Source: Fragilaria crotonensis (lineage: Eukaryota > Bacillariophyta > Fragilariophyceae > Fragilariales > Fragilariaceae). Taken from it: DNA of 32,664 bases. Below are positions 1 to 29,796 of the stretch, one piece after another. The stretch is from the NCBI GenBank assembly GCA_022925895.1, contig JAKSYS010000694.1, forward strand, positions 1 to 32,664, written 5' to 3'. Every line of letters begins with the position of its first letter. Positions within the stretch are counted from its first letter, which is position 1. Below the pieces are notes generated by a model. It saw nothing but the letters and a program-made list of their open reading frames with translations, ran no database searches and had not been told where the DNA came from. The translations under genes were made by a program, and so were the position numbers.

Positions 1-375
1 CAACTACTACTACCGTTGTAGAACTAAGTACCAGTAGTGTACTGCACCTTTTTACGTGGCACTCAGTAGATGTCTCATGTCTCATGTGAGTTAATAGTCA
101 TTTCACTTGATCGTCAATCGTAGAATGCTGCTGTAAAGGTGTTTTCAGTGCCGGAGAAGTTCAGAAACAAGAGACGAGAGATGTTGATTGGGTACATGGA
201 AAAACCTTTCATTCATCAGAAGCATTCGTCAGGCGGCATACCACGCCCTCGCATGACGAAGCCGCTGTGGGGGGTCACAACGAAACGAGCGTAACACAAA
301 ATACTCCGTACACAGCATCAAGTAGGAACTCAGTACTACCTTTACCTCACCTCATAACATTCTTCCAAGTCAACT

Positions 376-424
376 TCTGCCTCTAGTTTCTGCCTCTAGT
401 TCCTGCCTCTAGTTCCTGCCTCCC
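376..424. repeat. 13-bp tandem repeat directly upstream of the ankyrin gene
   Basis: The 13-bp unit (T/C)CTGCCTCTAGTT occurs three times in a row at 376-414. A partial fourth unit runs into the start codon at 425. The repeat therefore forms the immediate 5' leader of the ankyrin gene. The remaining upstream sequence (1-375) shows no coding region and no promoter motif that I can defend. Confidence 0.85.
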
Positions 425-1471
425 ATGAGTTCGTACACAGCCGTCGAAAACTCCACCATGGTCGATGCTATTGAAGATAGTGCAAGGAATGGAATCGTCG
501 TGATGGAACCTGAACATGTCACGGCATGTGGCGATTTTGATCGTCGCGTCGACTCCGAGAATGATGACGAATCTGAGGACGACGATTCTGAGGACGACGA
601 TTCTGAGGACGACGATTCTGAAGACGACGCTTCAGATGACTCTTACAGCTCTTCTTCAAGTGAGGATGAAGACGAAATCGCATCGGCATCACACACGCGT
701 TCGAATGTGCAGTTGATGCACATGCGTAGAAATCGGTCTTTTCCGTCTCTTGTCGAACATGAGCTAAGTAGCATTCAAATCAATATACTGTTGAATCAGA
801 TGACACGCCGAGGAAGCATGACTCATGCATCTGTTGCGAGCGCCAGTGGTCTCTTGCATATTCGAGGCGAGGCGATGGAGTCAGTCGGACAAAGTCAGAC
901 TGAGAGTCAGGACTGCAAAGATCCTACCGAATTGTACCACCAGATTCTCACGGACGCTGGATACACTCCACGAGTCTTTGCCCACAATGAGATAGACAGC
1001 TTCTTTGAAGAGGTCACTGAGAGCCGAGTGAGCTCCTACACCACCGACCTCATCGCCGCTGTCAAAACAACCAACATTGAACATCTAAGGGCGTTGCATT
1101 CCCAAGACAAAAGCAAGAACATGAACAGCTGCAATCGGTTCGGGGAAAGTATCCTCCACACTGCCTGTCGACACGGACAGTTGGAAGTTATCGAATTCCT
1201 GCTGAATGAAGCCCAAGTGGATCCCCGGGTCTGTGATGACTTCGGCAGAACTCCGTGCCATGATGCGGCCTGGCAGGCCGAACCTAATGTGGCGTTGATG
1301 GAGATGATAGCGACGCGGTGTCCTGACCTTCTCTTGATCTCAGACAAGCGTGGCTTCACTCCCTTGCAGTACGTGCGAAAGCCGCAATGGTCAGCATGGG
1401 GGGAAATGCTAGAAGCGAACAAGGAAGAAATTCTCCCCAAACAGCTGCTGCTTTGCGAAGGCAACCACTGA
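425..1471 (+). CDS. Ankyrin-repeat protein with acidic Ser-Glu-Asp tandem repeats
   Basis: A single-exon gene of 348 residues. Residues 46-84 are a very acidic low-complexity stretch built from repeats of SEDDD, encoded by near-perfect 15-bp direct repeats at about 575-630, followed by a serine run. Residues about 204-330 form two to three ankyrin repeats, with the clear signatures GESILHTACRHGQLEVIEFL, FGRTPCHDAAW and KRGFTPLQYVR. Ankyrin arrays are protein-binding scaffolds, and small proteins with C-terminal ankyrin repeats are, to my knowledge, numerous in diatoms. There is no signal peptide or membrane segment, so a cytosolic or nuclear location is likely. The start is the first ATG after the tandem-repeat leader; ATGs at codons 12 and 27 are alternatives. 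The binding partner cannot be inferred, and no neighbouring gene is functionally linked. Confidence 0.8.
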   Translation: MSSYTAVENSTMVDAIEDSARNGIVVMEPEHVTACGDFDRRVDSENDDESEDDDSEDDDSEDDDSEDDASDDSYSSSSSEDEDEIASASHTRSNVQLMHMRRNRSFPSLVEHELSSIQINILLNQMTRRGSMTHASVASASGLLHIRGEAMESVGQSQTESQDCKDPTELYHQILTDAGYTPRVFAHNEIDSFFEEVTESRVSSYTTDLIAAVKTTNIEHLRALHSQDKSKNMNSCNRFGESILHTACRHGQLEVIEFLLNEAQVDPRVCDDFGRTPCHDAAWQAEPNVALMEMIATRCPDLLLISDKRGFTPLQYVRKPQWSAWGEMLEANKEEILPKQLLLCEGNH

Positions 1472-4272
1472 CGATATAAACATCGCAGAACAGAATGCGA
1501 TTACTAGCTAGGTCAATCACAACTTTTACGCTTGGAGTTATTTAGAGGTTTGTTTCGATAGGCAGACTACCGTACAGCATACACATCTATATCCAAACGT
1601 AATCCTGAGTTCTGAGGTCATTTTGAAAAGACCCACACGACGCAAGCACCTGCTTTGTCGTGCTCGTCGCGTGTCGCGCGTGGGGAAAGGGGAAACGATA
1701 CCGGTACGGGCATACTCACGTACCTGGTACCAGGTACCTGGTGCCTGGTACTCACACTCAGGCCTGTCATGGTGTCATGGAGTCATGGTAGTAATCTGAT
1801 GCAGTGTACGCCTACAGTAAAGTGTATGTACTCGGAGTATGTCATAATCATGTGATATAATGATATCGTTTGCACCAAGCAACAAATGACCGTCTTCAGG
1901 TGTTCGGTACGCGAGGTCGGGACAATAGTAAGAGCATCCCAACCGCTGGAGCGAAATCTGAGATATGACCCGATAGGACCATTTGCGTCGACAATTTTGT
2001 CCAAAATGCATGGCACCGCTTGGGCTCGATACCTCAGATTTCGCGCCCGAGCGGATCGAAATATCTGATTTGGGGCTCGAGAATAGAGCCAAATTGCTGA
2101 ATTCTCGAGCCGGGTCCAGATTCTCGCGCCCCTCGTTTTGTCCTATTCGACCCATTCGAATAAAAAATTAACCAATAGAATTTTATCACGGATGCCACGT
2201 TCACACTGTGACTCATGTCAGTTTGTCTGTGATCTGTATGCAAAAAATTGACATCATCTCGGACGAGCACCATAACACCATTGAAACGACGTCGAGGTCA
2301 GTCAAAAAAACTTCGGTGGCAAAAAGCAATGAATGCGTAGTAGTAAATTGATTGGTACGATTGCGGAGGTACGCATTGCCTCCTGTTCTTTACGTGCCAG
2401 CATCCTTTTCGATGATTTTGTTTCGTAACGACGGTATGACATCAATGTAATACTACTGTACTGTATATGCTATTGAACCTGGTACATCACACACATTCGG
2501 GACGCAACCTCTCGTTTACCTAGCTAGATGTCGACTTGACTGAGTAAGTAAATCTGATGGCATATCCAGCCTTGGGGGAAGGAGCCATTCAGAAGTAAAC
2601 CATTGTAGTAGAATGATGGTACAGCAATGTAGAAATGGAGATACTACGTAGTAAAGGCCTTTACTGTTTTGGGTTGTTCATAAGTAGTGTAAGCTTCTTA
2701 GTGAACAAGGCCAAGGCTGAGAACAAATGAAATTGAGATGTGCAATTTAGTTTGTGTCTCACAAATCAAACGTGGTGTAAGCCCACTTGTTAAGTTGTGT
2801 TTAAAAGGTGTTTTCCATTGTAAAATAGTATTGTCAAAAGCCCTCATGATTTGAGTTCTTTGAGAAACTCAGGGCAACACAATTCAATAAAGTATGGTCT
2901 TTGCACCAGATTGAACATCACTTGAAACACTAAAAGACCAGCCAGACAGAGCATTTTCTAACAAGACAAATACCTCATACTAATCCGTATGTTTTCTCAT
3001 TGCATCCATCAACCAGCACATTGCTGCTGCTGTGCTGCTGAGAGCTTACCATTACTATACATTATATTGCTTTTGAACCATTTATCACACTTCCTGTCCT
3101 CATGAAACAGTAAGACTGATGGATATTGATGGCAGATTCCTGGAAACAGAGGTCAGACTTAAAGTCCTGAGCAATCTCACCAACAACAACAAGATTTTGA
3201 AAAGGAAGCTTGCGGATCAAGAGGTTGGTACTCGTCTTGTAGCAAAGGATCTCAAAGAGAGCAACAGTTCCAGAATGCTGGTTGCCTTCTTGATACCTCC
3301 AGTGACTGATGGTGGGGCCGACTCATGAGCCGCCTTGGTTGGTGCTCACAAAGAGGAGCCTTAGCTCAAATAGATTTCTAAGTGGTTTGCTTGGTTTTCA
3401 ACAACAAGAACATCAGCAGGCACATCACAGTTAGTACCCACTCTGTTGTTATTTCACTGTCTGGTCAGATATCCTCAGAGACAATTGATCCTATGCACTT
3501 CACAGTTCACCAATTCCTTGTATGGTGGTGTACAAACACTTCTCACCATTCACCATATGCAAAACCTACAGGGTACGCAGTGCTTGAGGATTTCTAGTAC
3601 AAGTACAACTGGACGGGTGCATGACTGGTCTCTGGATACCTTCAAGTGACAAGAAGTGAACTTAAGTTGTTGCGATTGACAAGAATTGCTGAAAAATTCT
3701 GGTTGGCATTTTCTTGGGACAAATATTTTTTGGGATCGCCCCAACAAATTCGGGATAATGTTTGTGGCATGTCATGCGACAAAAAATACTGGGGTGAGGC
3801 CTGAAATAGCACCTATGCCTTCTATATCATATGCATAGCAACTTCTAACTGAATGAAGGCCCTGCTAGGGGCGCCAGCCCAGACGCCTCTAATAGGTAAT
3901 CCCCTCATATTTCATATAAAACAATGGAATTCAGTATTAATTTGTATTCCAATACATGTTGTTAATACGTGGACTTCAAGCAACGATCAGTACGCCTGTA
4001 GCCTGTACTGGAGTCCTGGAGTACTCGAGTACTCTGGAGTATTCTGTATTCCATCCAATCCGAGTGACAGACAGACGCCGCTGCGGCCATTAACCGAACT
4101 TCAAGTCCGCAAAAAAGCCCACCGCAACCATCGAAACTCTGTTCCTGCCTTTCAGCACTTCTCTCGATAATCCGTTGTTCACTTTCCTCCACGGTTGAAC
4201 GAACCAATTCGTCAAGTGCCTCAGTGTGTCAATAGCATTACTTTGTGATCGTTCTCTTCCCGCCCTTTAGTA
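1472..4272. other. Gene-poor interval, no supported gene
   Basis: About 2.8 kb with only short open frames. Two structured stretches stand out. One is a group of inverted repeats at 1951-2111, listed separately. The other is a run of CAGGTACC/GGTACCTG-type repeats at about 1717-1750. The stretch 3119-3328 has a short open frame rich in Lys, Leu and Asn (69 codons) that could be a relic of a mobile element, but I recognise no domain. A GGAGTACTCGAGTACTC palindromic cluster lies at 4018-4034, about 240 bp before the next gene. Confidence 0.5.
1951..2111. repeat. Cluster of inverted repeats (possible MITE or structured RNA)
   Basis: GCGAAATCTGAG at 1951-1962 is matched exactly in reverse complement at 2033-2044. 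The match extends imperfectly outward (CCGCT/AGCGG). A second perfect stem pairs GGCTCGAGAAT at 2074-2084 with ATTCTCGAGCC at 2101-2111 across a 16-base loop. No reading frame is conserved through it. It could be a degraded small inverted-repeat element or a structured transcript; the sequence alone does not decide. Confidence 0.45.
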
Positions 4273-5637
4273 ATGTCCGATCCACTAACTTCCACAACAG
4301 CTCCGGGACGCGTCTTTCAGTCTCGAGCCGAGCTTGCGGATCACTACAAGTCCGATTGGCACAAGTACAATCTCAAAAGACGGGAAGCTGGACTTCCTCT
4401 CTTGCGCGAGGAAGATTTCAAGGCGCGATTGGAGGCAGCCCTGGCCTTGCGACAAGAACGTGAGGGACGTGACGAGAGATCGGGAAAGGATCATTTGAAG
4501 AATAAGAAGGAACACAAAAGAAAGAAGGGCGAAAAGCTTGGTGGTGCTGTCGCTGTGTCACAAGCGTCGGCGTATGACCGAATCAAAGGCGGGGCGACTG
4601 AAGAGGGCCCGAATGGCGCAGTCGAACCCGAAATAGATGTCGAGACGGATGACACGGATGCTGAAATGGTACAAGATGAGCCGCCTGTGATCGAGCCTCG
4701 ACAGTGCCTGTTTGATAAGCACATGTCACCGACCTTAGATGCCAACATTGAACGAATGGCGCGCAAGTATGGATTCTTCGTCCCAGATCAGGAGTATCTT
4801 GTTGATAAGGAGGGCTTACTGGGATACTGTCATGAAAAAGTCAAGTTGGGCCATTGCTGTCTCTACTGCCAGAAACTGTTCTCAACTTGGCAAGGTTGCC
4901 AGAAGCACATGATAAGTACCCGACACACCAAGCTCAGATACGAACGCGGGGTGGATATGGAAGAATTCGATCCTTTCTTCGACTTCAGTGAAGCCGATGC
5001 AGATTTTGTTGGCAGAGAAAATAGATCATCCGATCTAGATGATGGCGAAGCCATTGGGGACGATGGATGGGAAGATGTTACAGACGATGAAGCCGAAGAC
5101 GTGGATGCGGATATGGACGACGATGCTGATGACGAAGGCTTGTATGCCGGTTATGAAGACGAGATCGCTCGCTTTGGCTTCCATGTTACTCCTCTCGGTG
5201 AATTAGTGTTCCCCGACGGCAGAATCGTCGGCCATCGCGGTTTGGCCCGTTACTACAAGCAACGCATTGTGATTGCAAACGATCGCGCTGCCGTTCTAGC
5301 GGCAAGGCGAGCAGCTGGAGAACGATTGTATCGCGGTCGCGTCTACAGCACTGCTGCTGATGACGTGCCCCATGAATCGGCTTTGGCCTTGGCGAGAGCT
5401 GGAGTAAACCCAGGATTGGCTGCCGGTCGCTCCGGCAACGGCTTATTGGTCAAAACTATGGGCGGCAGCTATACCGCACTCTCGTTATACCGTTTCAAAG
5501 CTGTTGTGAAGAAAGCTCGTCGCGACAATGCTCGTGGGCAGCGACTTCAGTACAGAACTACGATGAATACAAACAGAATGGACAAGAAGGCCAATAGATT
5601 AATGAACGGTGTGAGTGTCGCTCACGCGAAACGGTAA
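4273..5637 (+). CDS. 60S ribosomal subunit biogenesis factor, Rei1/ZNF622 family
   Basis: Single-exon gene, 454 residues, the usual length for the family. Rei1/ZNF622 proteins act in the cytoplasm in the last steps of 60S maturation, helping to release and recycle nuclear export factors and probing the peptide exit tunnel. The N-terminus carries the family signature HYKSDWHKYNLKRREAG (residues about 24-40), but the Cys pair that normally precedes it in the first U1-type zinc finger is absent. A central block reads YGFFVPDQEYLVDKEGLLGY, followed by a C2H2 finger (CLYC near 195-200 with the paired His in HMISTRH). The DMEEFDPFFDF motif follows, then an acidic stretch (about 250-295), and a C-terminal block with LVFPDGR and GHRGLARYYKQR. 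The upstream CCCTTTAG could be a 3' splice site, so a missed 5' exon is possible. Its 3' third is duplicated at 9029-9340. Confidence 0.85.
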   Translation: MSDPLTSTTAPGRVFQSRAELADHYKSDWHKYNLKRREAGLPLLREEDFKARLEAALALRQEREGRDERSGKDHLKNKKEHKRKKGEKLGGAVAVSQASAYDRIKGGATEEGPNGAVEPEIDVETDDTDAEMVQDEPPVIEPRQCLFDKHMSPTLDANIERMARKYGFFVPDQEYLVDKEGLLGYCHEKVKLGHCCLYCQKLFSTWQGCQKHMISTRHTKLRYERGVDMEEFDPFFDFSEADADFVGRENRSSDLDDGEAIGDDGWEDVTDDEAEDVDADMDDDADDEGLYAGYEDEIARFGFHVTPLGELVFPDGRIVGHRGLARYYKQRIVIANDRAAVLAARRAAGERLYRGRVYSTAADDVPHESALALARAGVNPGLAAGRSGNGLLVKTMGGSYTALSLYRFKAVVKKARRDNARGQRLQYRTTMNTNRMDKKANRLMNGVSVAHAKR

Positions 5638-6612
5638 AGAATGAATGACACAAAGAATGAATGAGAAAGTGTAGAATCAGTTATCCACGCATACATTTTG
5701 CAATTATACAAGGTCTGTCTGATTCCCTTCTGCCGGGAACGCCGTCCAATTCTTCAATTGAGGACACCCCGTCAAACACAATTGTGGTACCAGCTTTATC
5801 TTGGTCGTCTCCTGTCAGAAGGATTCTGCCCTGTCCTCCACGGCAACACACTATTCAACCGGGAGCCATAGGATGACAGCCATTCGTTGCTTAACAGCGA
5901 GGGATCTTCTTCTGTCAGCAGCACTTCAGCTTTACAAAGCGGACACCTCGTATGGCGCTTCGTCAGCCACGGAACGATACACTCTGTGTGGAACACATGT
6001 TGACAAGGAAGCTGACGGAGTTTGTCTCCCTCTGCGTGATCTTCAATGCACACTGCACACGAGGTTTGATGAGCAGGTTCGTCTCTCAAATTGTAGTCCA
6101 CCGACGGGAGTTTCAGCACTTGTTCTTCAGACATTAATCGTTCCGAAACAAACGCAGATCTCTCGCTGGCCGTCATGATTCCAGCTTGGACGCACACCAA
6201 AAGACATCCGATGCAAGCAAGAAAACCAAAAATCCGCTCATTGCTGCCATTATCCATTCTTCTGTGTCGTCGTAGCCTGGCCCATACGCGTCATTTGGTA
6301 TTCGACGGTCCATGGTGACGAGCAAACCCCCTTCCGATCTCGAGTCGTCAGCTTGCTCGCGCAGCATCTGGCGCAGCTCTATTGCAAGAGCGCTAAAGTG
6401 TGAGGAACATAACTCACATTCGAATGGATAGAAGGAGTATCAATCAAACTTACGCAATCCTTTCGAGTGAGACACGAATAGCTAGAGGTCCGTCGATTCG
6501 GTATTTTCAGACGCACTCATGGGAACCAATTGAGTCCGGGATCAATATCATTGCCTCTCTAGCTTTTTCTTCAACACTACACGCTCCTCGGCATACCAAA
6601 AGAGATACAGGT
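4923..6612. repeat. Direct duplication, left copy
   Basis: This segment, from within the ZNF622 coding region through the 3' two-thirds of a RING gene copy, aligns base by base with 9029-10289. Matching stretches include ACACCAAGCTCAGAT, GCATACATTTTG, GCCGGGAACGCCGTCC and GGAGCCATAGGATGACAGCC. Similarity ends abruptly near 6612, inside what would be the PA domain. The left copy keeps a complete ZNF622 but only a broken RING gene. Confidence 0.85.
5703..6612 (-). pseudogene. Truncated, frameshifted copy of the PA-TM-RING ligase gene
   Basis: Reads on the minus strand and is closely similar to the intact gene at 9342-10644. Transmembrane and RING-H2 segments are recognisable (CAVCIEDHAEGDKLRQLPC, HTECIVPWLT, CPLCKAE), but several lesions break the frame. 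One base is missing in the transmembrane coding region near 6221-6235 (11 bases versus 12 in the intact copy, between GCAAGCAAG and TCCGCTC). One extra base lies near 5838-5842 after the RING. About 40 bp of the PA-domain region are deleted near 6540-6550. The 5' half (signal peptide, start of the PA domain) is missing because homology stops at about 6612. The RING residues themselves are intact, but no start codon joins the TM and RING in one frame, so a functional product is unlikely. Confidence 0.8.
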
Positions 6613-6657
6613 TATATCGATGTGATAACTGCAAGTTCTTAGTTCTCGCCGGACTTA

Positions 6658-8158
6658 TCAATCGAGTTGGTTGTTGCCCATCTTCCTCAAATCACGGGCC
6701 ATGTTCTTGTGGTGGCTCTCGTTGGTACCGCCACCGATTTCCAGAAGCTTTGCATCGCGCCACAAACGCTCAACAACATACTCCCCAACATAACCGTAAC
6801 CTCCCATGACCTGAATGGCTCGATCAGCTACATTCTTCGACATTGGAGCGCAAAAGAGCTTCACACCGTCAGCATCCAACCCGTTGCCATGAGTTTCCAG
6901 ATCTAAGCTATTTGACAGACCGTAGACATAGCAGCGACCCGCCATGTATTCTGCGTAGCTTTCTGCTATATGGCGTTGGATCTGGCCGAATTTATAGAGA
7001 TCGGAGCCAAAGGCTGTTCGGTCACCTGCATACCGCTTCATTTCATCGATACAACGGCGAGCTATGCCAAGTCCCATGGAAGCCAGACCGATGCGCTCAA
7101 TCTCCAAATTCCTCATCATGCAAAGTGTAGCTCCGTTCACTTCACCAACGACATTCGACTGTGGAACAAACACGTTCTCGAAAACTAGCTCTGCTGTTGC
7201 TGAAGCTCTCATTCCCAGCTTGTCCTTGATTTGCTGACCAAGTGTGAACCCTTCCATACCCTTCTCCACAATAAACTGCGTGATATCAGTCCTTCCCGAC
7301 CCTGTTCTTGCATAGACTAAATACACGTCTCCAGTCCCTTCACCGGAGAGTGTGCCATTGGTGATCCACATTTTGGTTCCGTTCAATACCCAACCATTAA
7401 GAGCAGTGTCTTGAGTCGCCATAGTTCTCATGCCCAATACATCGGTTCCGGCCATGGGTTCCGACATGCACATACCCCCGATAGAGCTACCGGCACATGC
7501 CGGCGGCAGATATTTCTGCTTTTGCTCCTCATTTCCATTGATTGCCAAATTGTTCACGAACAAGAGGGAGTGGGCAAGATAAGACAAGCAAAATGCAGGA
7601 TCGGAATAACTCAACTCTTCGTGGACGAGAGCTACTGCTGTGGCGTCGAAGTTGGTCCCATTGTATCTCTCTGAGACTGTCAACCCAAGGATTCCCAAAT
7701 TCTCGGTACCAAGCTTCTTGAAGAGCTCAATATTGAACTCTTCTCGCCTATTAAAGTCGAGAGCCTGTGGTTCTACCTGTTATCGGAAAAGGAAGGTATT
7801 GGATATCGAGCAAAATTGCAGGGAAAGGACAAGTGACAGGGGTATGTCACCGACATCCGAGACAGCATCAATGCAGGTACAAACAAAGGAGGCTGGTCAT
7901 CTTCTTAATTTGTGTTTAGGCCTCGGTCAGTGACAATGGCTGTGGTGTGGCAATGACACAATGTTGCCGTTGGCGCTTTCTGCCCTACCAGCTCCTTACC
8001 TCCTTTTTGACAAAGCTGCGCAACATCGATCGGAGTGCGAGATGTTCATCGGTAGGACTAAAAAGAGAGGACAGGCCTTGAGAAGAGAAAGCTCGAGGGC
8101 CTGTGACAAGCCTCTTGTGGAGCACGATGATGGAACGACGATGTATCATCGTTAGCAT
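6658..8158 (-). CDS. Mitochondrial acyl-CoA dehydrogenase, isovaleryl-CoA-dehydrogenase-like
   Basis: Two exons, complement(6658..7776, 8000..8158), around a 223-bp GT-AG intron (7777-7999), giving 425 residues, the size of isovaleryl-CoA dehydrogenase. These FAD enzymes oxidise branched or straight acyl-CoAs and pass electrons to ETF. The N-terminus (MLTMIHRRSIIVLHKR, then AFSS) looks like a mitochondrial presequence. An in-frame ATG at 8338 exists, but the one at 8158 gives the better presequence. Core motifs are MSEPMAGTDV and WVLNGTKMWITNG (FAD/substrate domain), LGMRASATAELVFENVFVP, and a C-terminal RDAKLLEIGGGT. The position holding the catalytic Glu of medium-chain enzymes is Gly here (GGGT). 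A Glu stands instead in NLEIERIGL (about residue 280), the arrangement known for isovaleryl- and long-chain enzymes. Substrate therefore stays open between these. The gene sits exactly between two copies of a duplicated segment. Confidence 0.85.
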
Positions 8159-9028
8159 TCTGCGTTCAGGGTTCGGAGTGTCGTGTCGAAACTCTGTTCG
8201 TTCGCCTCCGCGCCCGAAGAAAACATCTTTTCCACCATGTCTGACGTCGGAAGTTCTCAAGGTGAAACTCCACGACCGACGAGAACGATCAGACAGAATA
8301 AATGTCAAGATTGGGACACCCCGTGGGAACCGCGCCAAAATGTGAATATGTCAATGCACCCACCGTCCGTCCTTAGTTCGTTTATCACATCGTTTGGACG
8401 AAGTCTCACAGTGAGCGCCACCATGACAGAACGAAGGGCTTCACTTTTCTTTTCCCACCTTGGCGTCCATTCCTCCTGTCGTCGATCCCAATTTTGGCTT
8501 TCTCGTTTCGAAGTGGATTGATCCTCCCTCCTTTGTCCCGATTCTAACAGAAATAACGATACAAGCGGATTTTTGATGAGGCTAAGCACAGGGACATCAG
8601 TATTCAAACTTCCTTGCACCGCTATGCTACCCTTGGACGCTATGCAGTTGATGACAATACTTATGATACTATTTGGACAATGAATTTGAAGTTGATCCAC
8701 TTCGTTTCCATATTCTAAACTATCTGGTGTCAATACGTCAATACATGCACCATGTCAATCGGAGAATGGATATTCCGCCCTAGCTCGATAAATGGGCGAC
8801 GAAGCGTTCCCAGGCATGTTTAGCATTCCATGCACCGGGCGTCATTACAATCTATCATGCCTTCAAGGGGCATGAAATAAATTTACCAGGTTTATCCTTG
8901 TGCCAAGCAAACTCTAGTTGGCCTCATCTCCATTTTGCATCAGACGCGCAGTCCTCCTTGCTTATCTCCGAGATTTCATTAGGCTTCTGCAACAAAAGGG
9001 AAGCGCAATTTTTCTTTGTACTTGAGAC
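8159..9028. other. Spacer between dehydrogenase gene and duplicated segment
   Basis: About 870 bp upstream of the dehydrogenase. Short open frames occur on both strands, but none has a recognisable motif. It holds the dehydrogenase promoter region by position. No repeat or mobile-element end is visible, and I see no third duplicate here. Confidence 0.5.
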
Positions 9029-9340
9029 ACCAAGCTCAGATCCGAGCGCGGGGTGGATATGGAAGAATTCGATCCTTTCTTCGACTTCAGTAATGCCGAT
9101 ACAGATTGTTTTGTTGGCAGAGGAGATAGGGCATTCGATCCCTGATGGCGAAGCGATTGGCGACGATGGACGAAAATATGATACGGACGATGACACCGAA
9201 GACGTGGATGCGGATATGGATGACGATGCAGATGACGAAGGCCTGTATGCAGGTTATGAAGACGAGATCTCACGACACAGCGAAACGACAAAGAATGTAC
9301 GAGACAGAGTAGAATCATCTATACACGCATACATTTTGTA
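9029..9340 (+). pseudogene. 3' fragment of a Rei1/ZNF622 gene copy
   Basis: Duplicated remnant of the gene at 4273-5637. It starts at ACACCAAGCTCAGAT and continues through the ELERG...MEEFDPFFDF-equivalent and the acidic tract (EDVDADMDDDADDEGLYAGY is readable in frame). Small insertions and deletions break the frame near 9108 and 9145. After GAAGACGAGATC the segment jumps to the 3' end of the parent gene (GCGAAACG..AAAGAATG), so roughly 450 bp coding for the conserved C-terminal block are deleted. No start codon or zinc-finger region remains. It keeps the same tail-to-tail position relative to the RING gene as the parent does. Confidence 0.85.
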
Positions 9341-10289
9341 ATTATACAAGACCTCTGACTGAGTCACTTCCGCCGGGAACGCCGTCCTCCTCTTCAAGTG
9401 AGGACACCCCTTCAAACACAACAGTGGCACCAGCTTGTTCTTGGTCGTCTCCGGTCAGAAGGACTCTGCCCTGTCGCCATGGCAACACACTACTCAACAG
9501 GGAGCCATAGGATGACAGCCATTCGTTGCTTAACAGCGAGGGATCTTCTTCTGTCGGCAGCACTTCAGCTTTACAAAGTGGACAGCTTGTTTGGCGCTCC
9601 GTCAGCCACGGAACGATACACTCTGTGTGGAACACATGTTGACAAGGAAGCTGACGGAGTTTGTCTCCCTCTGCGTATTCTTCAATGCACACTGCACACG
9701 AGGTTTGATGAGCAGGTTCGTCTCTCAAACTGTAGTCCACCGACGGGAGTTTCAGGACTTGTTCTACAGACATTAATCGTTCCGAAACAAACGCAGATCT
9801 CTCGCTGGCCGTCATGATTCCAGCTTGGACGCACACCAAAAGACATCCGATGCAAGCAAGAAAGGCAAAAAATCCGCTCATTGCTGCCATTATCCATTCT
9901 TCTGTGTCGTCATAGCCTGGCCCATACGCGTCATTTGGTAATCGACTGTCCATGGTGACAAGCAAACCCCCTTCCGATCTCGAGTCGTCAGATTGCTCAC
10001 GCAGCATCTGGCGCAGTTCTAATACAAGAGCGCAATAGTGTGAGGAAAATAACTCACAGGCCGAATGGATATAAGTAGTATCGATCAAACTTACGTAATC
10101 CTGTCGAATGGGATACGAATACCAAGTGGTCAGATGTTTCTGTTTTATCCGACGCACTCATGGGAACCAATTGAGTCCGGGATCGGTCATCGTAAACAAT
10201 AACAAAATCAACATTTGGCAATTTCATTGCCTCTCTAGCTTTTTCTTCAAAACTACACGCTCCTCGGCTGACCAAAAGAGCGACGGGTA
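9029..10289. repeat. Direct duplication, right copy
   Basis: Counterpart of 4923-6612 in the same orientation. Here the RING gene is complete and continues to 10644 beyond the end of homology, while the ZNF622 part is only a fragment with an internal deletion. The two copies are separated by about 2.4 kb carrying the dehydrogenase gene. Confidence 0.85.
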
Positions 10290-10644
10290 AACCATCCTGG
10301 ATGGGTCGAGTTTCCGACGAGACGTCGTTGTGTTCCTTCACCCGTTGTGAGTCACGGCGGTCTCCATTGCTCAGACTCAAAGTCACTTCATCATTCTCAC
10401 AAAGGAATGGCCGATTCACCAGCTCTTGAAGATGAGCCTGATACTGAATATTGCTAATCCAAGGTGATCCAAAAATTGCTGGCATGCTGTCGAATAAAAG
10501 GCCGTTGACAGCAAGTGCTGCGTTTGCAGGACTCGAGGTCATTAGAAGGAGATTAAACAATGCCGAATAGATTCTCCGCCTCCCAACAGTCGCAAATGTC
10601 GAATAGTATCTGTGCCGATTCATCTCTGTCGATAATGTGCACAT
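9342..10644 (-). CDS. PA-TM-RING (RING-H2) E3 ubiquitin ligase
   Basis: Two exons, complement(9342..10018, 10095..10644), with a 76-bp intron (donor GTAAGT at 10094, acceptor TTGTATTAG ending at 10019) that keeps the frame in phase 1. The product is 408 residues. PA-TM-RING ligases (GRAIL/RNF13 type) sit in endomembranes with a lumenal protease-associated domain and a cytosolic RING that ubiquitinates membrane or sorting substrates. Seen here: a signal-peptide-like N-terminus (about residues 22-42, ending SSPANA), a PA-like segment (115-183, with VALLVSRGACSFEEKAREA), a transmembrane helix (225-248), and a RING-H2 with C291, C294, C309, H311, H314, C317, C329 and C332. An acidic, Gly-rich tail follows. 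ATG at codon 8 is an alternative start. This is the intact member of a duplicated pair; its 3' end abuts the ZNF622 fragment. Confidence 0.88.
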
Positions 10645-11599
10645 GCAAGTGACTTATGCAGGAGTGTTGGGTTGCTGGTTTGTTTCGCAATGAGATTATT
10701 CAGCAGTTCGGTGTTCGGGTGTTCTGTGATCGGACTCTGTTCCCTACGGGTAGTCCCATGTCCCATGTAGTACAAGTACTGTAATCTGTACTACAAAGTA
10801 GAGTATGCATACAAAGTACAAGGTACTGGTATGATAGACTTGTCCTTCGATAGCGACCTGATGGAGTCTGCCGATTGCTGATGCCTCCCCTGTGAATATA
10901 GTCTGTGTACTGTACATGGACTTGTACTAGCAAATACTGGAGTACTCCATACTTGTACTCGAGTACTAGGAGTGTACCCTGTCCTTAAGTCGTACCACGT
11001 ACTGGTAGTTGGGTTCCTGCATGTTCCTATGACATATACTGCAGACTGCAGACTGCATACGGATACGTCATGTTGTCATGTGCATGTATGCATATGCATT
11101 ATGCATACCAGGGATTGGAAAAATAATACTGTCCCACGTTGAATCTGGTATTACAGTCCTCCGGTAGGTAGAATGGTATTGTGCTGTTGCACTGGGAGGT
11201 ATTTTGGTATTGAAAATCCTTCAGTCCGGTATAAGTATAACTTCTCTTCATTTTTGGAAGCGCAGTACTGTTCCATTGGTTTCGTCGGTACACTACAGTA
11301 ACAGTAAAATGCAGTACTACAGTACAGAAATGAACCGTATACACACTGATGCAGGACAGAACATTTATAGAAATTCAGGCTGGTATTCCCGAACACCGGA
11401 ATTCAAAATACTACCGACTAAACTCAGTAGAAAATAACCCCTGGTTACTGGTTGGTATATTGCAACTCGCAGGTAACCAGTTATTGGGCATTTTAAATAT
11501 CACAGTAGTGGTACAGTATAATACCCGGTATTTGGTTACCGGTACCGGTGGTTAGTGCATACCGGTAGTCAGTCGACAGTCACGGTACTGTGAACTGTG

Positions 11600-11658
11600 A
11601 GTCCCCAGTCCCCAGTCCCCAGTCCCCAGTCCCCAGTCCCCAGTCCCCAGTCCCCAGT
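11600..11658. repeat. 7-bp minisatellite AGTCCCC
   Basis: The unit AGTCCCC is repeated about 8.4 times without interruption. It lies in non-coding DNA. Copy number is likely to vary between strains, as is usual for perfect short tandem arrays. Confidence 0.95.
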
Positions 11659-12167
11659 CTCAGTCCTCCCTTCTTCGAGCGATTCGGGGCAATTACACAA
11701 AAAAAGGTCGGACCGATGCTAAAAGATTCATCGCCCATTTTCGGGCTGTATTTTTTTACATAGATAAATGACATATGTCATACTCCGAGCACCATACTGC
11801 CCGTATTATGATGCTGCTATGTAGAGTAGCAGAGTACTCGATGCACCCGGTACTGCCGTTTGAGTACTCGGAGTACCAGTCTACCAGTGCGCCCTCGTGA
11901 CATATGCAAGGAGCCACGTCCATTGATTAGATAGAAATACCTGTAGAATTCAACGGCAAAATGGATCATGGAGCGTGGCGTCATACGAGGAGGGTGCGAG
12001 TCTGGTATGTCATACCAGGTACCAGGTATAATACTGTCTGGGGAGATGAAGGCAGGGCATAACTACGAAAGTCACGATCGAGAGCGAACTCGACAGCGAA
12101 GTATTTATTGTCTACTTACCTTTTTTTCATAGGAATCTAGTACTAGTACAGTAGTATACACACTCTG

Positions 12168-12216
12168 AACCTGAAACCTGAAACTGAAACCTGAAACCTG
12201 AAGCCTGAAACCTGTA
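12168..12216. repeat. 7-bp minisatellite CTGAAAC in a gene leader
   Basis: About seven CTGAAAC-like units with one base-deleted and one substituted unit. The array ends about 20 bp before the ATG at 12237, so it probably lies in the promoter or 5' leader of that gene. Confidence 0.9.
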
Positions 12217-12236
12217 ACCAGAGAAGGTGAACAACA

Positions 12237-13301
12237 ATGTGCTCTCTCATGAGCTCCCCAATGAATATACAGGCAGAGCCTGAGGTAGTCTTACCCACGA
12301 GCAACGACGTCATCATGGGACAACTTTGGTTGCAACAGAGCAAGTGCTTCAATTTTCAATACGTTATTGTTCGAAACGCCGGAGCGTTCCTGGCATCGCA
12401 GGTAGCAAATAATTCAGGGGAGGTTGTTGCCACTGTTGCAGTGCAGCTTGGGCTTCTTGGAGTTCGATTTATTTTATTTGACTTTTCTCTTCAACGATAC
12501 ATTCGTATCAGGGATGATGTCCTTATTGCTGCAGAGATAAGCGCGGCATTTGTGCAATACTTTTCTTTCCCGAGCACCTTTTGTCCCCCGTCGGCTGGAT
12601 TCGCTGGTGCCTATGAGAATATGATTGGACAATCGCTTGCAGCAACGAGTCTTCGCACTACTGATAGTCTGGGGGCTGCTGCGACACTTGAACACGGTGT
12701 AGTGGATTTGACAGAGGAGGACGAGGAAGAAGTGAAACCTCCGCCATTCCCCACCGACCGGAACAACGTGATTCAGTACAAGTACCCATCTAATGAATTA
12801 CAGGTGAAAAAATTGTCTGAGCAAGGAAGTCATCGTTTGCCTTCCGCTTCAAATCCGAGAGATGATGAACATGGTTGTACTTCCAGGTTAAGCGAAGACA
12901 TTGATACAGCTAGTAGTCAGCAGGCAAAGCATACAGTGGATATGCGACAATCGACTGGAGAGCAAACGGGCCAGAGATTAGACCCTGCTTTGTCACCGAA
13001 CGCTCACGCGCAAGATCCGGAAAATGAAGCTGAATCGCAAGGACGACCTGATTCACTCGAACTCAGTGGCGAAGGTTCATCTCCTTTTCCAGCATCGCAC
13101 GCAATCACGTACTCTTCATCCTTCTATCCGATGGATATGTCAGATCTTCCCCATAAGGCAGCCGGCGACATGACTGGATGGCAATTCTTTCCCATGCAAT
13201 TGACGCAAGACTTGAAGGATGTACCACTTCTGAATGAATGGAAGGTAGTGGTGGTCCCGATGGGTACAACGCCAGGAGAGCCGTTCACCATGTCTCCGTA
13301 A
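12237..13301 (+). CDS. Protein with a divergent DUF6824-like N-terminal domain
   Basis: Single-exon gene, 354 residues. Residues about 20-110 match the pattern I know from DUF6824, a domain abundant in diatoms whose consensus begins NDVLLGRGG, continues GNxxFR and ends in a GRFL motif. Here I see SNDVIMGQ, then FNFQYVIV, VATVAVQLGLLGVRFILFD and a RIRDDVLIAAEISAAFVQ helix, in that order and spacing. The GRGG and GN hallmarks are missing, so the match is divergent and uncertain. Residues 150-330 are hydrophilic and low in complexity: VVDLTEEDEEE near 160 resembles a SUMO-interacting motif, and the rest is Ser/Gln-rich. The last 35 residues are hydrophobic-rich (WKVVVVPMG). The role is unknown; DUF6824 proteins are often assumed to be nuclear. 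No neighbour suggests a function. Confidence 0.6.
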   Translation: MCSLMSSPMNIQAEPEVVLPTSNDVIMGQLWLQQSKCFNFQYVIVRNAGAFLASQVANNSGEVVATVAVQLGLLGVRFILFDFSLQRYIRIRDDVLIAAEISAAFVQYFSFPSTFCPPSAGFAGAYENMIGQSLAATSLRTTDSLGAAATLEHGVVDLTEEDEEEVKPPPFPTDRNNVIQYKYPSNELQVKKLSEQGSHRLPSASNPRDDEHGCTSRLSEDIDTASSQQAKHTVDMRQSTGEQTGQRLDPALSPNAHAQDPENEAESQGRPDSLELSGEGSSPFPASHAITYSSSFYPMDMSDLPHKAAGDMTGWQFFPMQLTQDLKDVPLLNEWKVVVVPMGTTPGEPFTMSP

Positions 13302-14534
13302 TGCCCCCGTTGCATGCAGTTGATTCTCAAGAGCTCATCACATTCTCCGCCCTTGCTTTATACTTGGACTACTCCCAGTACTCTACAGTTTTTGACGTCC
13401 GTAAGGGAAGATGAAAGGGGAAATTTTTCATAGCCCTAAATTGGTATTCTGTGGTTTGAATTGTGCTTAATGAATTTATGAATACGTTATTTGACAACGT
13501 CTTATGGTCCATTCTCTTACTTGGTTCAGCATTCACAGCATATATAATATGATACAAAGCTTGCTATCCGCCAGTCTAAGGGTTTGTGTGAATTGTGTAC
13601 TGGAATACTATGCAGTAGCTAAACAGCAAAAAAAATCCGAACTTGGCCCAAGTTTCCAACGGAATCTCACTTCAAAAACAGAAACTGATGCCTAATTTGT
13701 AACCTAACTTGGATTTCCAAGTTAGTAAGACTCAACTTCGATGGACTTGGACATCCAAGTTGACCACATTTATTAGCCAAATTTGGTAACCCAAGTTTCC
13801 CATGTGCTCCATTTGTGTGTGTGTGTCTTTATACTTCCATCAAGGGCATTCATGGACTTTGTGTGCCATCGCAATGATGAGCAGAGACCCGATAACAGCA
13901 GAGGTGCTCAGCATCAGCCACCTGATGATGGGGGCATTCATGCTGATGGTATTGTTGGTGGTGTTGAGTGAACAGGAGGAATTCAATGCAGTCAGAATTT
14001 GTAATGACACATACCAGCAGTAATACAAAAAGTAGTACATGTCAATCATTCTGGTAATGATTAGACAACATTGTACTAGTATGTGTTGTCAGTTTGTCTC
14101 AAGCAGAACAATGAATCTCTTTTTCCCGCTTGAACAGGAACTGTGGTCGACCCTTTTGAAGTATGCACTCCTCCCACCCAAGAACTCTGATCTTCTTGAA
14201 AAAGAAGTCCGGCGGTGAGCAACTGGCTGCTTCGGAAACAGGTCGGCACCATGGCCAAGTAACTGGACACATAGTCAAGTGCTTGAGTGGCTTGAAGAAC
14301 ATCTTTGTCCCAGCTGCACATTCCTGTCAGTGGCAGCAGTCATGATGTAGGTAAAAAAATAATAGCATACCTATAGTCATGTACGCATGACAAAAACCTC
14401 TGTCTGGACTGCTACTTCTTCTTCAAAAGAAAACTTGGGAGTTTCCTACTTGGATACAAAGTTTCAAATTTGCTGGTGTATGCATGCCACTTCTAGTAGC
14501 TAGTCCCTGATGAAATCTAGCCTTCTACTTCTTT
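13302..14534. other. Non-coding DNA with ACTTGG/CCAAGT palindromes
   Basis: No gene is supported. Between 13638 and 13797 there are several palindromes made from ACTTGG and CCAAGT: AACTTGGCCCAAGTT near 13639, TAACTTGGATTTCCAAGTTA at 13706-13725, and ACTTGGACATCCAAGT near 13744-13759. A related motif (AACTTGGGAGTTTCC) recurs near 14432, so the stretch may be a decayed mobile element about 0.8 kb long. Short open frames on both strands here show no recognisable domain. Confidence 0.5.
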
Positions 14535-15100
14535 TGCAGTGACTGTCATTGCAAAGGTTGCACGCTTGGTATCGCCTGTAGACTTCTGTACGTAGACAGT
14601 GCAATGCCCAACAATGTCGAGTGTTTTCCTTGCATAGTTGTATGTAAAAGGAACAGGAGTCTGGTCCATATAAAGAATGTAATCCTGGTGTCGTGTTGGT
14701 TCCGAAACCTTTGGACGCATGACATTCACAATAAAATCCATTGCATCTGCAGCAACTTCCTGGGGCGAGCGCTGCGAGTCGCTAGTCCCAAGGCAAAAGA
14801 CAAGACCCTGTGCGCTAACAAACCTGCGGGCTGAGTGGTATTGGGCCATTCTGGTTTTATTCTTGAAATCTCTGGAAATCTGAGCTGCCTTCACCGCCAT
14901 CATTGGTATTGTAACTCCCATTCCTTTTTCTCTTAATTTGAAGATAAAGGCCAACAAATCTTCTGTATGTTCGGCCAAGCAATGCATGCGACCTGAATGC
15001 GTACTCTTTGCTCTAATATTGCGTTTCTTCTGCTCCATCATTGTGTCAGCCTGTTTAGAAGATGCATTGTAGGATGTATGTTGACAGATCTGCACGCTTT
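14535..15100 (-). pseudogene. Truncated inverted copy of the pogo-like transposase
   Basis: Reverse complement of 15801-16366, 566 bp in each copy with no gaps and one difference that I found (Asp versus Glu codon in GTSDSQRS/GTSESQRS). It covers the middle of the transposase: end of the DNA-binding region, the linker, and the first catalytic Asp (YMDQTPVPF). It lacks the start, the second and third catalytic acids and any stop at the natural end, so it cannot make an active enzyme. Its edges do not coincide with transposon ends: beyond 15100 and before 14535 the sequences of the two copies are unrelated. Confidence 0.85.
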
Positions 15101-16366
15101 AGGACCCCTTAAGGCCTAAGATAATAACAGAGACAAACGGTTACCGTCGACCCCAGAAGGATCTCCAGAAAGGTCCGGTAATCTCCGGCAATGCATTAAC
15201 TGCGTGCAAAAGCTACGAGAAGAAATCTGAGATGAGAGAATAACCGCACTTTACGGAATTCACCAATCGTCATACATGTACATCATGGTATCATGGATCA
15301 TGCATCATGGAAATCATGAAGAAGAGGTACTTGTAGTCGGTGATACTCGGGGCGTAGCCGGCCTTACTATTCACACTCCTACTACCGGTAGTAGCTACCA
15401 CCAGTCGGTCTACCGTAGTACTACCGTAAATTGCGTAGTTTAAGCTTCGGGGAATGTCCAGTTTGGGTCATCCAAAAAGCTTATTCACCGCAAAATGACT
15501 TTTTTCCGATGTACGAAAACAGGATTCCTTTTCCCATGACGTACGTGGCTTGTAGTACATAACGATGATGGCGCGGAATCACTTGATTCTTGTTGCTTCT
15601 CCATATTGATTAGTATCTTGCTCCTTGTTACAATGAGTTCCTCTCCAGATGACAGCAGCAGCGGCAATGATGATGGAGTTCCATCATTATATGTTCCGCC
15701 CTCATCAGTGAAGACAAGAAGGAGGTTCTCAATCCAACAGAAGATGGGAATCATTCGCACAGTGGCACGTCTCGTGGAGCAGGAAGGCATGACGCGTTGC
15801 AAAGCGTGCAGATCTGTCAACATACATCCTACAATGCATCTTCTAAACAGGCTGACACAATGATGGAGCAGAAGAAACGCAATATTAGAGCAAAGAGTAC
15901 GCATTCAGGTCGCATGCATTGCTTGGCCGAACATACAGAAGATTTGTTGGCCTTTATCTTCAAATTAAGAGAAAAAGGAATGGGAGTTACAATACCAATG
16001 ATGGCGGTGAAGGCAGCTCAGATTTCCAGAGATTTCAAGAATAAAACCAGAATGGCCCAATACCACTCAGCCCGCAGGTTTGTTAGCGCACAGGGTCTTG
16101 TCTTTTGCCTTGGGACTAGCGAATCGCAGCGCTCGCCCCAGGAAGTTGCTGCAGATGCAATGGATTTTATTGTGAATGTCATGCGTCCAAAGGTTTCGGA
16201 ACCAACACGACACCAGGATTACATTCTTTATATGGACCAGACTCCTGTTCCTTTTACATACAACTATGCAAGGAAAACACTCGACATTGTTGGGCATTGC
16301 ACTGTCTACGTACAGAAGTCTACAGGCGATACCAAGCGTGCAACCTTTGCAATGACAGTCACTGCA
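14535..16366. repeat. 566-bp near-perfect inverted repeat with 700-bp loop
   Basis: Arms 14535-15100 and 15801-16366 are reverse complements of each other. The 700-bp loop (15101-15800) holds unrelated sequence plus the first part of the right-hand transposase. In the loop, the perfect palindrome CTACTACCGGTAGTAG lies at 15379-15394. A transcript crossing both arms would fold into a very long double-stranded RNA. The near-identity shows a recent origin or ongoing gene conversion between arms. Confidence 0.9.
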
Positions 16367-16979
16367 TCCGGAAAGGTTTTGAAACCAGTGATTATTTTTA
16401 AGGGTGCCCGAAACGGTTGAATTGTGACGCAAGAGTTTCCAAATTATGAGGAAGAGCGACATGGTGTAGTACCTATACCAAGGCGCTGCTTGGATGGATG
16501 AAGAGGCAATGTTGGTGTGAGTTGACTGGGTGCTGCAGCCACACGTTGAAACAGCACCACCTGGAGTCATGCCTGTTTTATTTTTAGACGCGTACCGATG
16601 CCATATGATGGCATCGGTTGTGACCAGAATCCAAAATTTGGGTGTTGAGGTTCACCACATCCCGGGCGGATGCACATCGTTGTGTCAACCTGTTGACATT
16701 GGTGTGAACAAGCCCTTCAAGAACAGGCTTCACAGTGAGTGGGAAAAGTGGATGATTCTTGAAGGTCTGGAGCATGGTACAACCTCTCCACCAACAAGAG
16801 CGGACATTATTCGATGGTGTCGGTTTGCAATGAATGATCTTCCGGAACAGATCATGGTAAAAAATGTATGGAGGCATGCGGAATACTCATCGTTTCCGCC
16901 ACCCCCGGCAGCTGACAATGATCATGATAATCAATTCGACGATGACAACGACGACAAAAACGTATTCGACGCACAGTGA
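15633..16979 (+). pseudogene. pogo-like (DDE_1) transposase, disrupted
   Basis: Three reading-frame pieces line up as one transposase of the Tc1/mariner-pogo superfamily, which cuts and pastes DNA transposons. The first piece (from 15633) has a basic helix-turn-helix region (RRRFSIQQKMGIIRTVARL). The second runs to a stop at 16418-16420 and contains the first catalytic Asp in YMDQTPVPF, followed by LDIVGHCTVYV and VLKPVIIFKGARNG. The third (to 16979) has LFLDAYRCH with the second Asp and GGCTSLCQPVDIGVNKPFKN with the third, giving a DDD triad. Net frameshifts fall near 15840-15850 and 16480, and stop codons near 16418 and 16516. The element is therefore inactive. The C-terminus is Asp-rich. 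Terminal inverted repeats were not found. The following 16980-17445 has no supported gene. Confidence 0.8.
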
Positions 16980-17445
16980 AGAGAACAGTGACAACAAATC
17001 CAGCAGTAGCCATACGTTGTCCTCGTCGTCAGACAGTGATGACGAAGCTATGCCTCCGCTCCCCTCGACTCATGATTTTGTTGCGGCCCTTGAAAACAAT
17101 GCCCCCAATCAAGAAATCAGCAAAAGGACAGTCAGTCGACCACATTGAGTATTTAGTTGTAGTTGTACGAACCGAAATCACTACTTATTTTACGTTTATC
17201 ATCACTGCATTCGTAGTCACTGTCATTACTGTCATCACTAAAGGTTACGGGCACTTTTCTTACTCCATCCTTCATGTAACGTCATTCCAACTCTTCCACC
17301 TGCTTTTATTTCACCGGCACCAGTGAAATTAGATGTGGTTTTTTTGCCCTCTTCTTTGCCACCACCGTTGATGCAGTATGGGGGGGAGCCACCACCTTCT
17401 GCTTTATGTTTCTACCCGTTGGACTATTCGGCGGGACAGAAGCAG

Positions 17446-17703
17446 TTAATCCTGGGGATGACGTTTTGTCGATATTGACCTCTTGTCCAGGTCAAGAACA
17501 CGAGTGCTACGCATCGAAGGCGTCAGATCTTGACTTTTCTTTTTTGCTGCAACTTTCTTGGTACTAGTAGGAGGGGTGATGCACTCTTGTGACCTAGCAG
17601 CTCGAGCATGCTCGGTTCTAGTTTGTTTTGCCGCCGGGGGACGAGTTGGCGCTGATGTTGATGTTGATGTTGATGTTGATGTTGATGTTGATGTTGATGT
17701 TGA

Positions 17704-17778
<75 letters not shown>

Positions 17779-18369
17779 CGCTGTTGCTGTCGCTGTCGCT
17801 GTCGCTGTCATTGCACAATCATCATACCTCACAAATCCTCCTTCAAGTGCAACGGTAGTAGTATGATCCTCATCATCAACATAGTCGTCGTCATCATCAT
17901 TGCATTCTCTTTCAATCTTAGACAAGAAGGCACAAGTGGTCTTGTTTGCTTTCTCCGCCCTTCTTGCTGGTAATTCTGTAATGAGTGTAGCAAGACAACA
18001 ACCCTTGTTGTGATGGAATTTCTTTCGTTTGTTCAAACTTTTGCTCGTGGGAGAGTAGACCTCTGTCACCTGTGCCAGAACACCATCAAATGATAAAGCG
18101 TGAGGCACAAAATGGCGAGTAAAAAAACCAACACAACACTGGTCAATGCCATCAGTAAGGTGAAACGCAGCAATTGCAGTTTCTTCCTGTCCAATATTGT
18201 TCCTGATCTGCATTTTCCTCAGCCTTACAACAACATCCTCTTCAATCACTGATCCACAAACATCGTGTTGGTAGCATGATCTACTGTTAGTGCCGGACTC
18301 AATTCCAACAATTTCCACAGTGATTCCAGAAGGGTGGTGGCTGCCAGCAGTGTCCATGATACATAACAT
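17446..18369 (-). CDS. Unknown protein with (Thr-Ala)n/(Thr-Ser)n repeat, probably mobile-element-derived
   Basis: An intact 307-codon frame on the minus strand between two transposase pseudogenes. The N-terminal 120 residues are a folded-looking domain (EEDVVVRLRKMQI, QEETAIAAFHLTDG, CVGFFTRH) whose pattern of charged beta strands resembles a HIRAN-type domain, a weak suggestion only. An Asp-rich stretch follows, then about 27 Thr-Ala/Thr-Ser pairs encoded by a hexanucleotide array, and a Lys/Arg/Ser-rich tail. Despite the decay of both neighbours, the frame has no stop, and the array length is a multiple of three. It could be an accessory ORF of one of the flanking elements or a host gene. 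No intron or promoter is evident. The adjacent 18370-18899 holds nothing I can support. Confidence 0.5.
17654..17812. repeat. Compound hexanucleotide microsatellite (GATGTT)n(GCTGTT)n
   Basis: About nine GATGTT units (17654-17706) pass directly into about 17 GCTGTT/GCTGTC units. The unit is six bases, so in the minus-strand gene it encodes alternating Thr-Ser (ACATC) and Thr-Ala (ACAGC). The opposite strand is also open, and all three minus-strand frames stay open across it. Confidence 0.9.
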
Positions 18370-18899
18370 ATATGCATCAAGTTTTGAGGGATGCGAGTAC
18401 GTTGTTTGGCTGAAGCTTAATCACCACAACTTCATAGTTTTGCGATGCACAAGAGATTCCCTCAGAATTCCGTCGAAAAAGCTTGAACACCGCTCTAGAG
18501 CTATGGCTGGGTGCAAAAGCGGAAAAAATGTAGTAGAAATACGTAGATCTGGTACAAAACGTCAGCAAAACCTCAACCTTGTGAATGAACCCATGGAACA
18601 TAAAAAAAATGGCGCGCTGCTTTTCGTGCTTTGGTGATCCGACAATGATGGTCCATATCTCGACGGGAACATTGCAGCTCAAAGTAGTAGGACCGGTTAT
18701 AGCTCATTAATTAGCAGTATGAGCGAGATGTTGCCTTACTACATCGGGCGGCAAGGCACAGTAGTCATTTTATTCTCGCTTCATTTCAATCTGCCATCTG
18801 CGAAACCTCCCTCCACAATAAATGGTTGCACGTTGACGTTTTGCATGAATATATGCATCAACGATACTGCTCAATGGCCTTCATTTTAGCATAGCCACA

Positions 18900-21800: not shown

Positions 21801-21952
21801 GAGGAAGTGATGAAGTGAACGAAAGTGCACTCACAACAGATCCCGTCAAGATGGAGAAGATGATTAAACACTTCAAAACGCATCGTTGCGCACTCGATTT
21901 TGATCACAGCTTTTGCAAGGCGACATTCATTGACTTAACGAACGAAGATTAA
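18900..21952 (+). pseudogene. DDE-type transposase of a second, unnamed family, multiply frameshifted
   Basis: At least seven frame pieces, all on the plus strand and in order, read as one long protein. A basic N-terminal part (18900-19307) is followed by 19464-20070, with a helical region (HETVCKWYRSFRKTRCFLIP). Next comes YVDGHERPAT and ERRMHRWVQV near 20210-20310, and ISFGHDECIFKQF near 20525-20560. FLFDHSCGHDR lies near 20925-20960, YLGPHSPKLQVGD near 21057, and TPKCHCEMAGEGIEYSWG near 21565-21610, with a C-terminal CLSREKVLVTERIRLFSRRAR. The spaced Asp (GHDE), Asp (FDHS) and Glu (GEGIE) look like a DDE triad. I recall related proteins in oomycetes and invertebrates but cannot name the superfamily. 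Frames change near 19305, 19700, 20050, 20215, 20720 and 21220, so it is dead. Terminal repeats were not identified. Confidence 0.75.
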
Positions 21953-23031: not shown

Positions 23032-23198
23032 AGAAACACTTAGCGAAATTGATTGGATGCTGAACTTTTGTATTACTTGTACTCTTCAGTTGTCACATAG
23101 TATCCCAGCGATCGCGGTCACTGTTTATCGTTGATTGAGCATCACGAGCAGAGAAAAAGTGTTGGGTATTGAGGTACTACGAGTACAGCCTATCACCC

Positions 23199-29662: not shown

Positions 29663-29796
29663 TGGCTAGCTAAAATAGGGTTGATGCTCATAAGAATTGA
29701 ATCGCGAAGAAACAAAATCGCAGGCGCAGATGATGCGCCATTGATGAACCCACTCCATGTCATGACGCCTCAAACATTCATTTCACTTCACATGCG

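Follow-up and report, generated by a model that had tools for sequence, protein, structure and literature searches.

In Arabidopsis, Woodhouse et al. (2010) found flanking repeats longer than 30 bp around 9 of the 25 transposed genes whose parent could be identified, as against 2 of 102 controls (PMC2869330). According to the portions of that paper on which we draw, the repeat sequence occurs at the orthologous site in A. lyrata for 13 of the 18 transposed genes with such repeats, the parent is not identifiable in every case, and a long target-site duplication is offered as one possible explanation, recombination of circles being preferred. The locus described here, from the diatom Fragilaria crotonensis, is a longer member, in an alga, of this kind. 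It lies on contig JAKSYS010000694.1 (C663 in our numbering), whose entire 32,664 bp form the window analysed and which belongs to the organism's own assembly of 62.1 Mb in 881 contigs. That assembly gives 61 matches to the light-harvesting family; one of these, compared with PDB, hit LHCI chains of entry 9vfj best, followed by VCPI-1 and fucoxanthin chlorophyll a/c proteins among others. In it a complete acyl-CoA dehydrogenase (ACAD) gene sits between two direct copies of a segment running across the tail-to-tail ends of a ZNF622-like gene and a RING gene. As with the Arabidopsis transposed genes, a whole gene is placed between direct repeats drawn largely from the genic sequence of the target (PMC2869330), and the repeated sequence is genic and non-repetitive. 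The Arabidopsis repeats measure 30-550 bp (550 bp being a Pack-MULE, the next 287 bp), whereas the repeat described here extends over 1697 bp across two convergent gene ends; the Arabidopsis comparison spanned about 500 bp per side, and longer repeats could have been cut short there (PMC2869330). Target homology was confirmed in the sister species in that work, whereas the present locus is known from one genome.

Other repair-associated duplications share some features with this locus, as far as the cited passages describe them. In rice, the patch-mediated repair of adjacent nicks (Vaughn and Bennetzen 2014, cited in PMC7971508) likewise duplicates the broken stretch, and over the interval of 125-200 bp tandem duplications go from 70% of insertions down to 5%; unlike here, no captured gene between the copies is described in that account. 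Filler DNA in the double-strand-break repair of grasses (Wicker et al. 2010, cited in PMC3445842 and PMC4812662) also captures gene segments, although the citing passages describe no kilobase-scale target duplication of the present sort. In primates, repair-mediated duplications capture nearby DNA at the break (Pace et al. 2009, PMC2671141), with linked captured pieces of up to 619 bp and target duplications of 4-21 nt in the part of the study consulted, both smaller than here. No title or abstract opening in the diatom literature on duplication and synteny reported such a structure, a weak negative as most of those papers were unexamined. The locus resembles gene movements already described in plants, and its simplest reading, to which we give about an even chance, is that one repair event duplicated the target stretch while capturing the ACAD segment.

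Comparison of the window with itself placed the left copy at 4916-6612 (plus strand, 1697 bp), comprising the 3' part of the ZNF gene, the intergenic stretch and a RING fragment, and the right copy at 9018-10288 (plus strand, 1271 bp), from which 449 and 16 nt are missing around the 3' end of the ZNF gene. In a global alignment, 1111 of the 1229 paired columns were identical (118 differences), and BLAST joined the copies over 1002 columns at 87.8% identity (E 0.0) and 254 columns at 86.6% (E 3e-82). The left copy is without 35 nt beside position 6543 and without 3, 2, 1 and 1 nt elsewhere, while the right copy is without the 449 nt (beside 5177), the 16 nt (beside 5634) and a further 2 and 1 nt. 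The duplicate copies are old. By both BLAST and the alignment they abut the inserted segment exactly, with clean ends on either side. A first-pass annotation of the sequence had proposed this direct double occurrence of the ZNF622/RING junction, and both methods confirmed it; when the segments it had delimited (4923-6612 and 9029-10289) were aligned, their ends proved to be off by 7, 0, 11 and 1 bases.

The two outer genes are whole. The left one, at 4273-5637 on the plus strand, is an open frame of 454 aa with a zf-C2H2_2 domain (PF12756, E 2.9e-27 in Pfam), which we take to be ZNF622/Rei1, and a protein search found it to be the sole whole copy in the own genome. The right one, the RING gene at 9342-10644 on the minus strand, has two exons (10644-10095 and 10018-9342) around a 76-nt intron (10094-10019) and encodes 408 aa; its exon-2 frame carries zf-RING_2 (PF13639, E 3.8e-14) and its exon-1 frame has no Pfam match. 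The splice sites of this gene and of the ACAD gene are predictions from the sequence itself. The inner copies, on the other hand, are not merely truncated, as had been suggested, but also carry stops and indels. The RING fragment (5704-6612, minus strand) lacks the 5' end with the first 356 coding bases, and contains a TAG near 6484 and at least two frameshifting deletions (35 nt and 1 nt). The ZNF fragment (9018-9274, plus strand) opens with a TGA at 9023-9025 and is frameshifted; besides the truncation that had been recognized, it has also lost some 460 bases of the gene's 3' end.

The segment between the copies (6613-9017) is 2405 bp long and holds the complete ACAD gene at 6658-8158 on the minus strand, with modelled exons 8158-8000 and 7776-6658 encoding 425 aa and one intron of 223 nt (7999-7777, GT..AG), so that the earlier observation of about 2.4 kb with a complete, intron-containing dehydrogenase precisely between the copies holds. 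The exon-2 protein has the N-terminal, middle and C-terminal ACAD domains, all above the Pfam cut-offs, which identifies it as an acyl-CoA dehydrogenase, and the top PDB matches are isovaleryl-CoA dehydrogenases (IVDs), the best being 8sgr (E 1.5e-75). The stop codon lies 45 bp from the left junction. The RING fragment probably supplies the 3' end of the ACAD gene, because it is sense-oriented and begins merely 45 bp beyond that stop. Within the broken RING copy, 5796-6257 on the minus strand is a frame of 153 aa with an ATG, a hydrophobic stretch and an intact RING-H2 domain; as it is sense-oriented downstream of the ACAD stop, it may possibly yield a read-through product. Selection on the left RING fragment was considered and is unsupported, nonsynonymous divergence (dN 0.030) and synonymous divergence (dS 0.048) in the core of the fragment showing no difference (Fisher p 0.37).

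Retroposition of the ACAD gene is ruled out because it retains its 223-nt intron. The annotation had allowed for a foreign segment, which for a recent event finds no support: the GC content at third codon positions is 0.531, inside the range of three other genes of the window (0.469-0.536), the gene has an intron, and the N-terminus resembles a mitochondrial presequence by eye. Recent bacterial transfer as the cause of the event was rejected on the intron and on this similarity in composition. Nor does the locus fit the insertion of a transposon with a short target-site duplication of fixed length, as the duplication is 1.7 kb, no other near copy was found, and inspection by eye reveals no terminal inverted repeat at the ends of the insert (TATATCGATG.. 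and ..TTTTTCTTT); the Pfam scan of the proteins of the insert, which bears on the question of a transposase, covered the ACAD exon-2 protein only. Elsewhere in the insert, 8448-8852 on the plus strand is a decayed remnant, interrupted by stops and shifts, which by tblastn resembles an open frame of contig C272 at 37% identity (E 3.7e-18). At the DNA level the insert matched, besides itself, only a stretch of C272 in the own genome (query bases 2016-2124, 74%), which falls within that same open frame; no Pfam family was found in the 605 residues of the frame that were scanned.

In the 62.1-Mb own assembly no near second copy was found of the insert, the ACAD protein, the ZNF protein or the RING stretch, the last being searched with the DNA of the fragment (5641-6612) and not as protein. 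Scoring in this search is limited to the top candidates, and words that occur very often are passed over, yet a near copy would be expected to rank among those scored. With the same DNA and with the ZNF protein, the duplicate was found at just the two places described. Further ACAD matches exist in the own genome at 29-37% identity, and none of them qualifies as a parent copy. Beyond this genome, no relative of the ACAD exon-2 protein or the ZNF protein was found in viral_contigs, and none of the ZNF protein in genome_contigs. The annotation had regarded the locus as a case of gene relocation; no donor ACAD copy survives in the own genome, therefore relocation as such is not demonstrated. If the gene was inserted, its single-copy state requires that a donor was lost or that the gene truly relocated. 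A comparable ambiguity is noted, in the part of the account consulted, for Drosophila Cenp-C, a single gene kept at changing loci for which relocation and duplication with loss are not always separable (PMC12724597, preprint).

More than one sequence of events would produce the arrangement found today. The one-step capture predicts blocks that end at the insert, no ACAD sequence outside it and no lost gene ends inside it, which is what is seen. When the insert was compared as DNA with the flanks 1-4915 and 10289-14530, the best match was no better than those of 60 three-base-block shuffles (18/60 and 33/60 as good), and 14531-32664 was compared without shuffles. The ACAD protein gave nothing below E 2.2 by tblastn against 1-4915 and 10289-32664, so that in these flanks, as DNA and as protein respectively, no ACAD remnant of the kind that a tandem duplication would lead one to look for was detected beside the other unit. 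Nor was any residue of the missing 5' parts of the ZNF and RING genes detected in the insert (26.5 and 21.1 bits only). The clean ends and the lack of residues fit the part of the earlier proposal that spoke of a kilobase-scale target duplication formed with capture, while a literal staggered fill-in of 1.7 kb is unnecessary, being only one route to it.

If, as we infer, the direction was insertion and the event a single step of repair, the ZNF622-like and RING genes would ancestrally have stood tail to tail with no ACAD gene between them. Breaks, or a stalled fork and its re-start, would have occurred at two points 1.7 kb apart, one in each gene, and the breaks, on sister or homologous chromosomes, could have been rejoined via a 2.4-kb piece holding the whole ACAD gene; template switching away and then back upstream would be another route to the same order of duplication, insert and duplication. 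The outcome would be one whole copy of each outer gene and a cut inner copy of each, and the event could be survived because each broken gene retains one whole copy. The donor ACAD gene would have been lost later, unless the captured piece was itself the moved original. Afterwards the inner copies would have decayed, and gene conversion would have re-homogenised the middle of the duplicate.

The main rival, credible although we consider it somewhat unlikely, is a larger tandem duplication: the ACAD gene was already a neighbour, a unit breaking inside one gene was duplicated, and deletions then removed one of the ACAD copies and the 5' end of one gene. To judge how common such events are, we draw on a sample of 160 kb (16 stretches of 10 kb on three long contigs, chosen as earlier hits and hence non-random), in which BLAST gave 15 direct pieces of at least 200 bp whose copies are set apart by a gap, the only inverted pieces being two shorter ones of 181 and 145. 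The 15 are BLAST pieces, several per single event, and some may be transposon ends (e.g. 564 bp at 97.9% on C437). Two examples in this sample resemble what such a duplication would leave behind. On C764 (sample positions 25281-36369), a DnaJ/amine-oxidase pair has a decayed tandem copy in which the DnaJ copy is cut inside the gene (69% identity) and begins about 50 bp beyond the stop of the intact amine oxidase, only fragments of a second amine oxidase being found further on; at 69-84% identity this duplicate is older than the ACAD locus. On C327 (stretch positions 7409-9651), a gene for a DegT-type aminotransferase has a nearby copy without about 1.24 kb, most of the coding region. Duplication wreckage of this sort is not rare in the sampled part of the genome. 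The tandem history nevertheless calls for a duplication followed by two deletions, and one of these must have taken out a whole ACAD gene without detected trace.

Our own count thus sets two events for the capture (capture and loss of the donor) against three for this rival, and it is parsimony only that keeps the one-step capture ahead, with our confidence in it near the midpoint. Several points tell against it. Neither an empty site nor a donor site has been seen and the polarity is unproven; complete deletions would leave identical clean ends; the junctions show no diagnostic short homology, and a divergence of 13% blurs them; and the local direct duplications of the sample, some breaking inside a gene, are common and favour a tandem origin. 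Together with the Arabidopsis precedent (PMC2869330), the frequency of these duplications also weakens the earlier description of the locus as an unusual route.

Divergence between the copies is not uniform. A change-point scan, in a test that assumes independent sites, delimited a homogenised centre at 5864-6349 with 17 differences in 486 columns (3.5%) as against 101 in 743 elsewhere (13.6%), and none of 200 shuffles did as well. Synonymous differences are fewer in the core than in the ends (5/108 vs 18/83, p 0.0005), and the deficit is weaker against the intron and intergenic sequence (18/129, p 0.016). The plain explanation, which we prefer, would be a gene-conversion tract formed after the duplication, because the low divergence extends to synonymous sites and amino-acid constraint alone is insufficient. 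Alternatively, the tract may be the crossover mark of the event itself, as under homologous integration of a circle bearing the ACAD gene and a diverged ZNF/RING copy. Recombination of circles is the published model for the Arabidopsis transposed genes (PMC2869330, in the portions cited) and the centre is there to be seen, but an earlier third ZNF/RING copy beside an ACAD gene is required and none was found in the own genome, while later gene conversion accounts for the centre equally well; we regard this course as very unlikely. As between capture and tandem duplication the centre is neutral.

A further possibility is that the duplication came in two steps, first a simple tandem of the form ZNF-RING'|ZNF'-RING and later an independent insertion of the ACAD segment at its junction. 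Tandem duplications above 1 kb do exist in rice, the longest reported in the consulted part of that work being 4.9 kb (PMC7971508), gene fragments are harmless landing ground, and transposed genes tend to insert into tandem repeats according to the relevant portion of Woodhouse et al. (PMC2869330). The insertion would, however, have had to strike the junction within a few bases, and we hold this course to be quite unlikely. An artefact of assembly, by which two haplotypes or paralogous contigs were joined, comes to mind as the source contig has only 32,664 bp and the junctions are known from the assembly, yet the copies differ by about 10% and by several indels, the inner ones are damaged, and the assembly yielded no other version of the locus, all of which make it exceedingly improbable.

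Should the insertion reading be true, the locus is a well-preserved scar of a whole gene entering two genes without harm to either, and its flanking duplications exceed in length the ones listed for Arabidopsis; should the tandem reading be true, it reflects ordinary duplication and decay. The exact breakpoints are now given for a comparative test. A bolder extension, about which we are rather doubtful, is that this algal lineage would regularly relocate whole genes, introns and promoters included, by kilobase-scale insertional duplication at convergent gene tails. Such a route would be tolerated: the duplication would mend the very genes it had broken, and the scar would later be blurred by gene conversion from one flanking copy to the other.

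The ACAD protein has prokaryotic kin, which bears on the deep origin of the gene and not on the rearrangement. Among the best 80 of 125 matching loci on prokaryote contigs, the closest are a Bdellovibrionota protein (61% identity) and a Poseidoniaceae protein (58%), both encoded amid prokaryote-like frames, and the other 78 are 38-44% identical. Of 60 genomes sampled from the order to which the Poseidoniaceae archaeon belongs, its own among them, 52 match the ACAD exon-2 protein at E <=1e-60 with up to 65% identity and 8 have no match at that level. We placed the window protein in a tree with two own paralogues and 22 of those 80 loci (25 rows in all, with no solved IVD and no other eukaryote). 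It joined the Bdellovibrionota and Poseidoniaceae proteins in one clade (100/99), though the program warned that long branches meet there. The best PDB matches are IVDs, yet this tree, built without a solved IVD, sets the protein apart from the 38-44% identical ones; going by these comparisons, it appears to belong to a subfamily apart from those prokaryote ACADs, and a gene may long ago have passed between marine prokaryotes and algae.

The window also contains repeats unconnected with the duplicate. Two interspersed families, at 1923-2520 and 11107-11554, have tens of matches in the own genome, mostly at 86-97% and 85-95% identity respectively, and are probably transposons. Inverted repeats do occur in this genome, because the window itself has one of 566 nt at 14535-15100 and 15801-16366 (99.8% by BLAST, arms 700 nt apart). 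The same open frame, which has no Pfam match, starts in each of its arms, and the arms are followed by a frame with a DDE_1 endonuclease domain at 16530; the whole is probably a mobile element with an inverted partial duplication.

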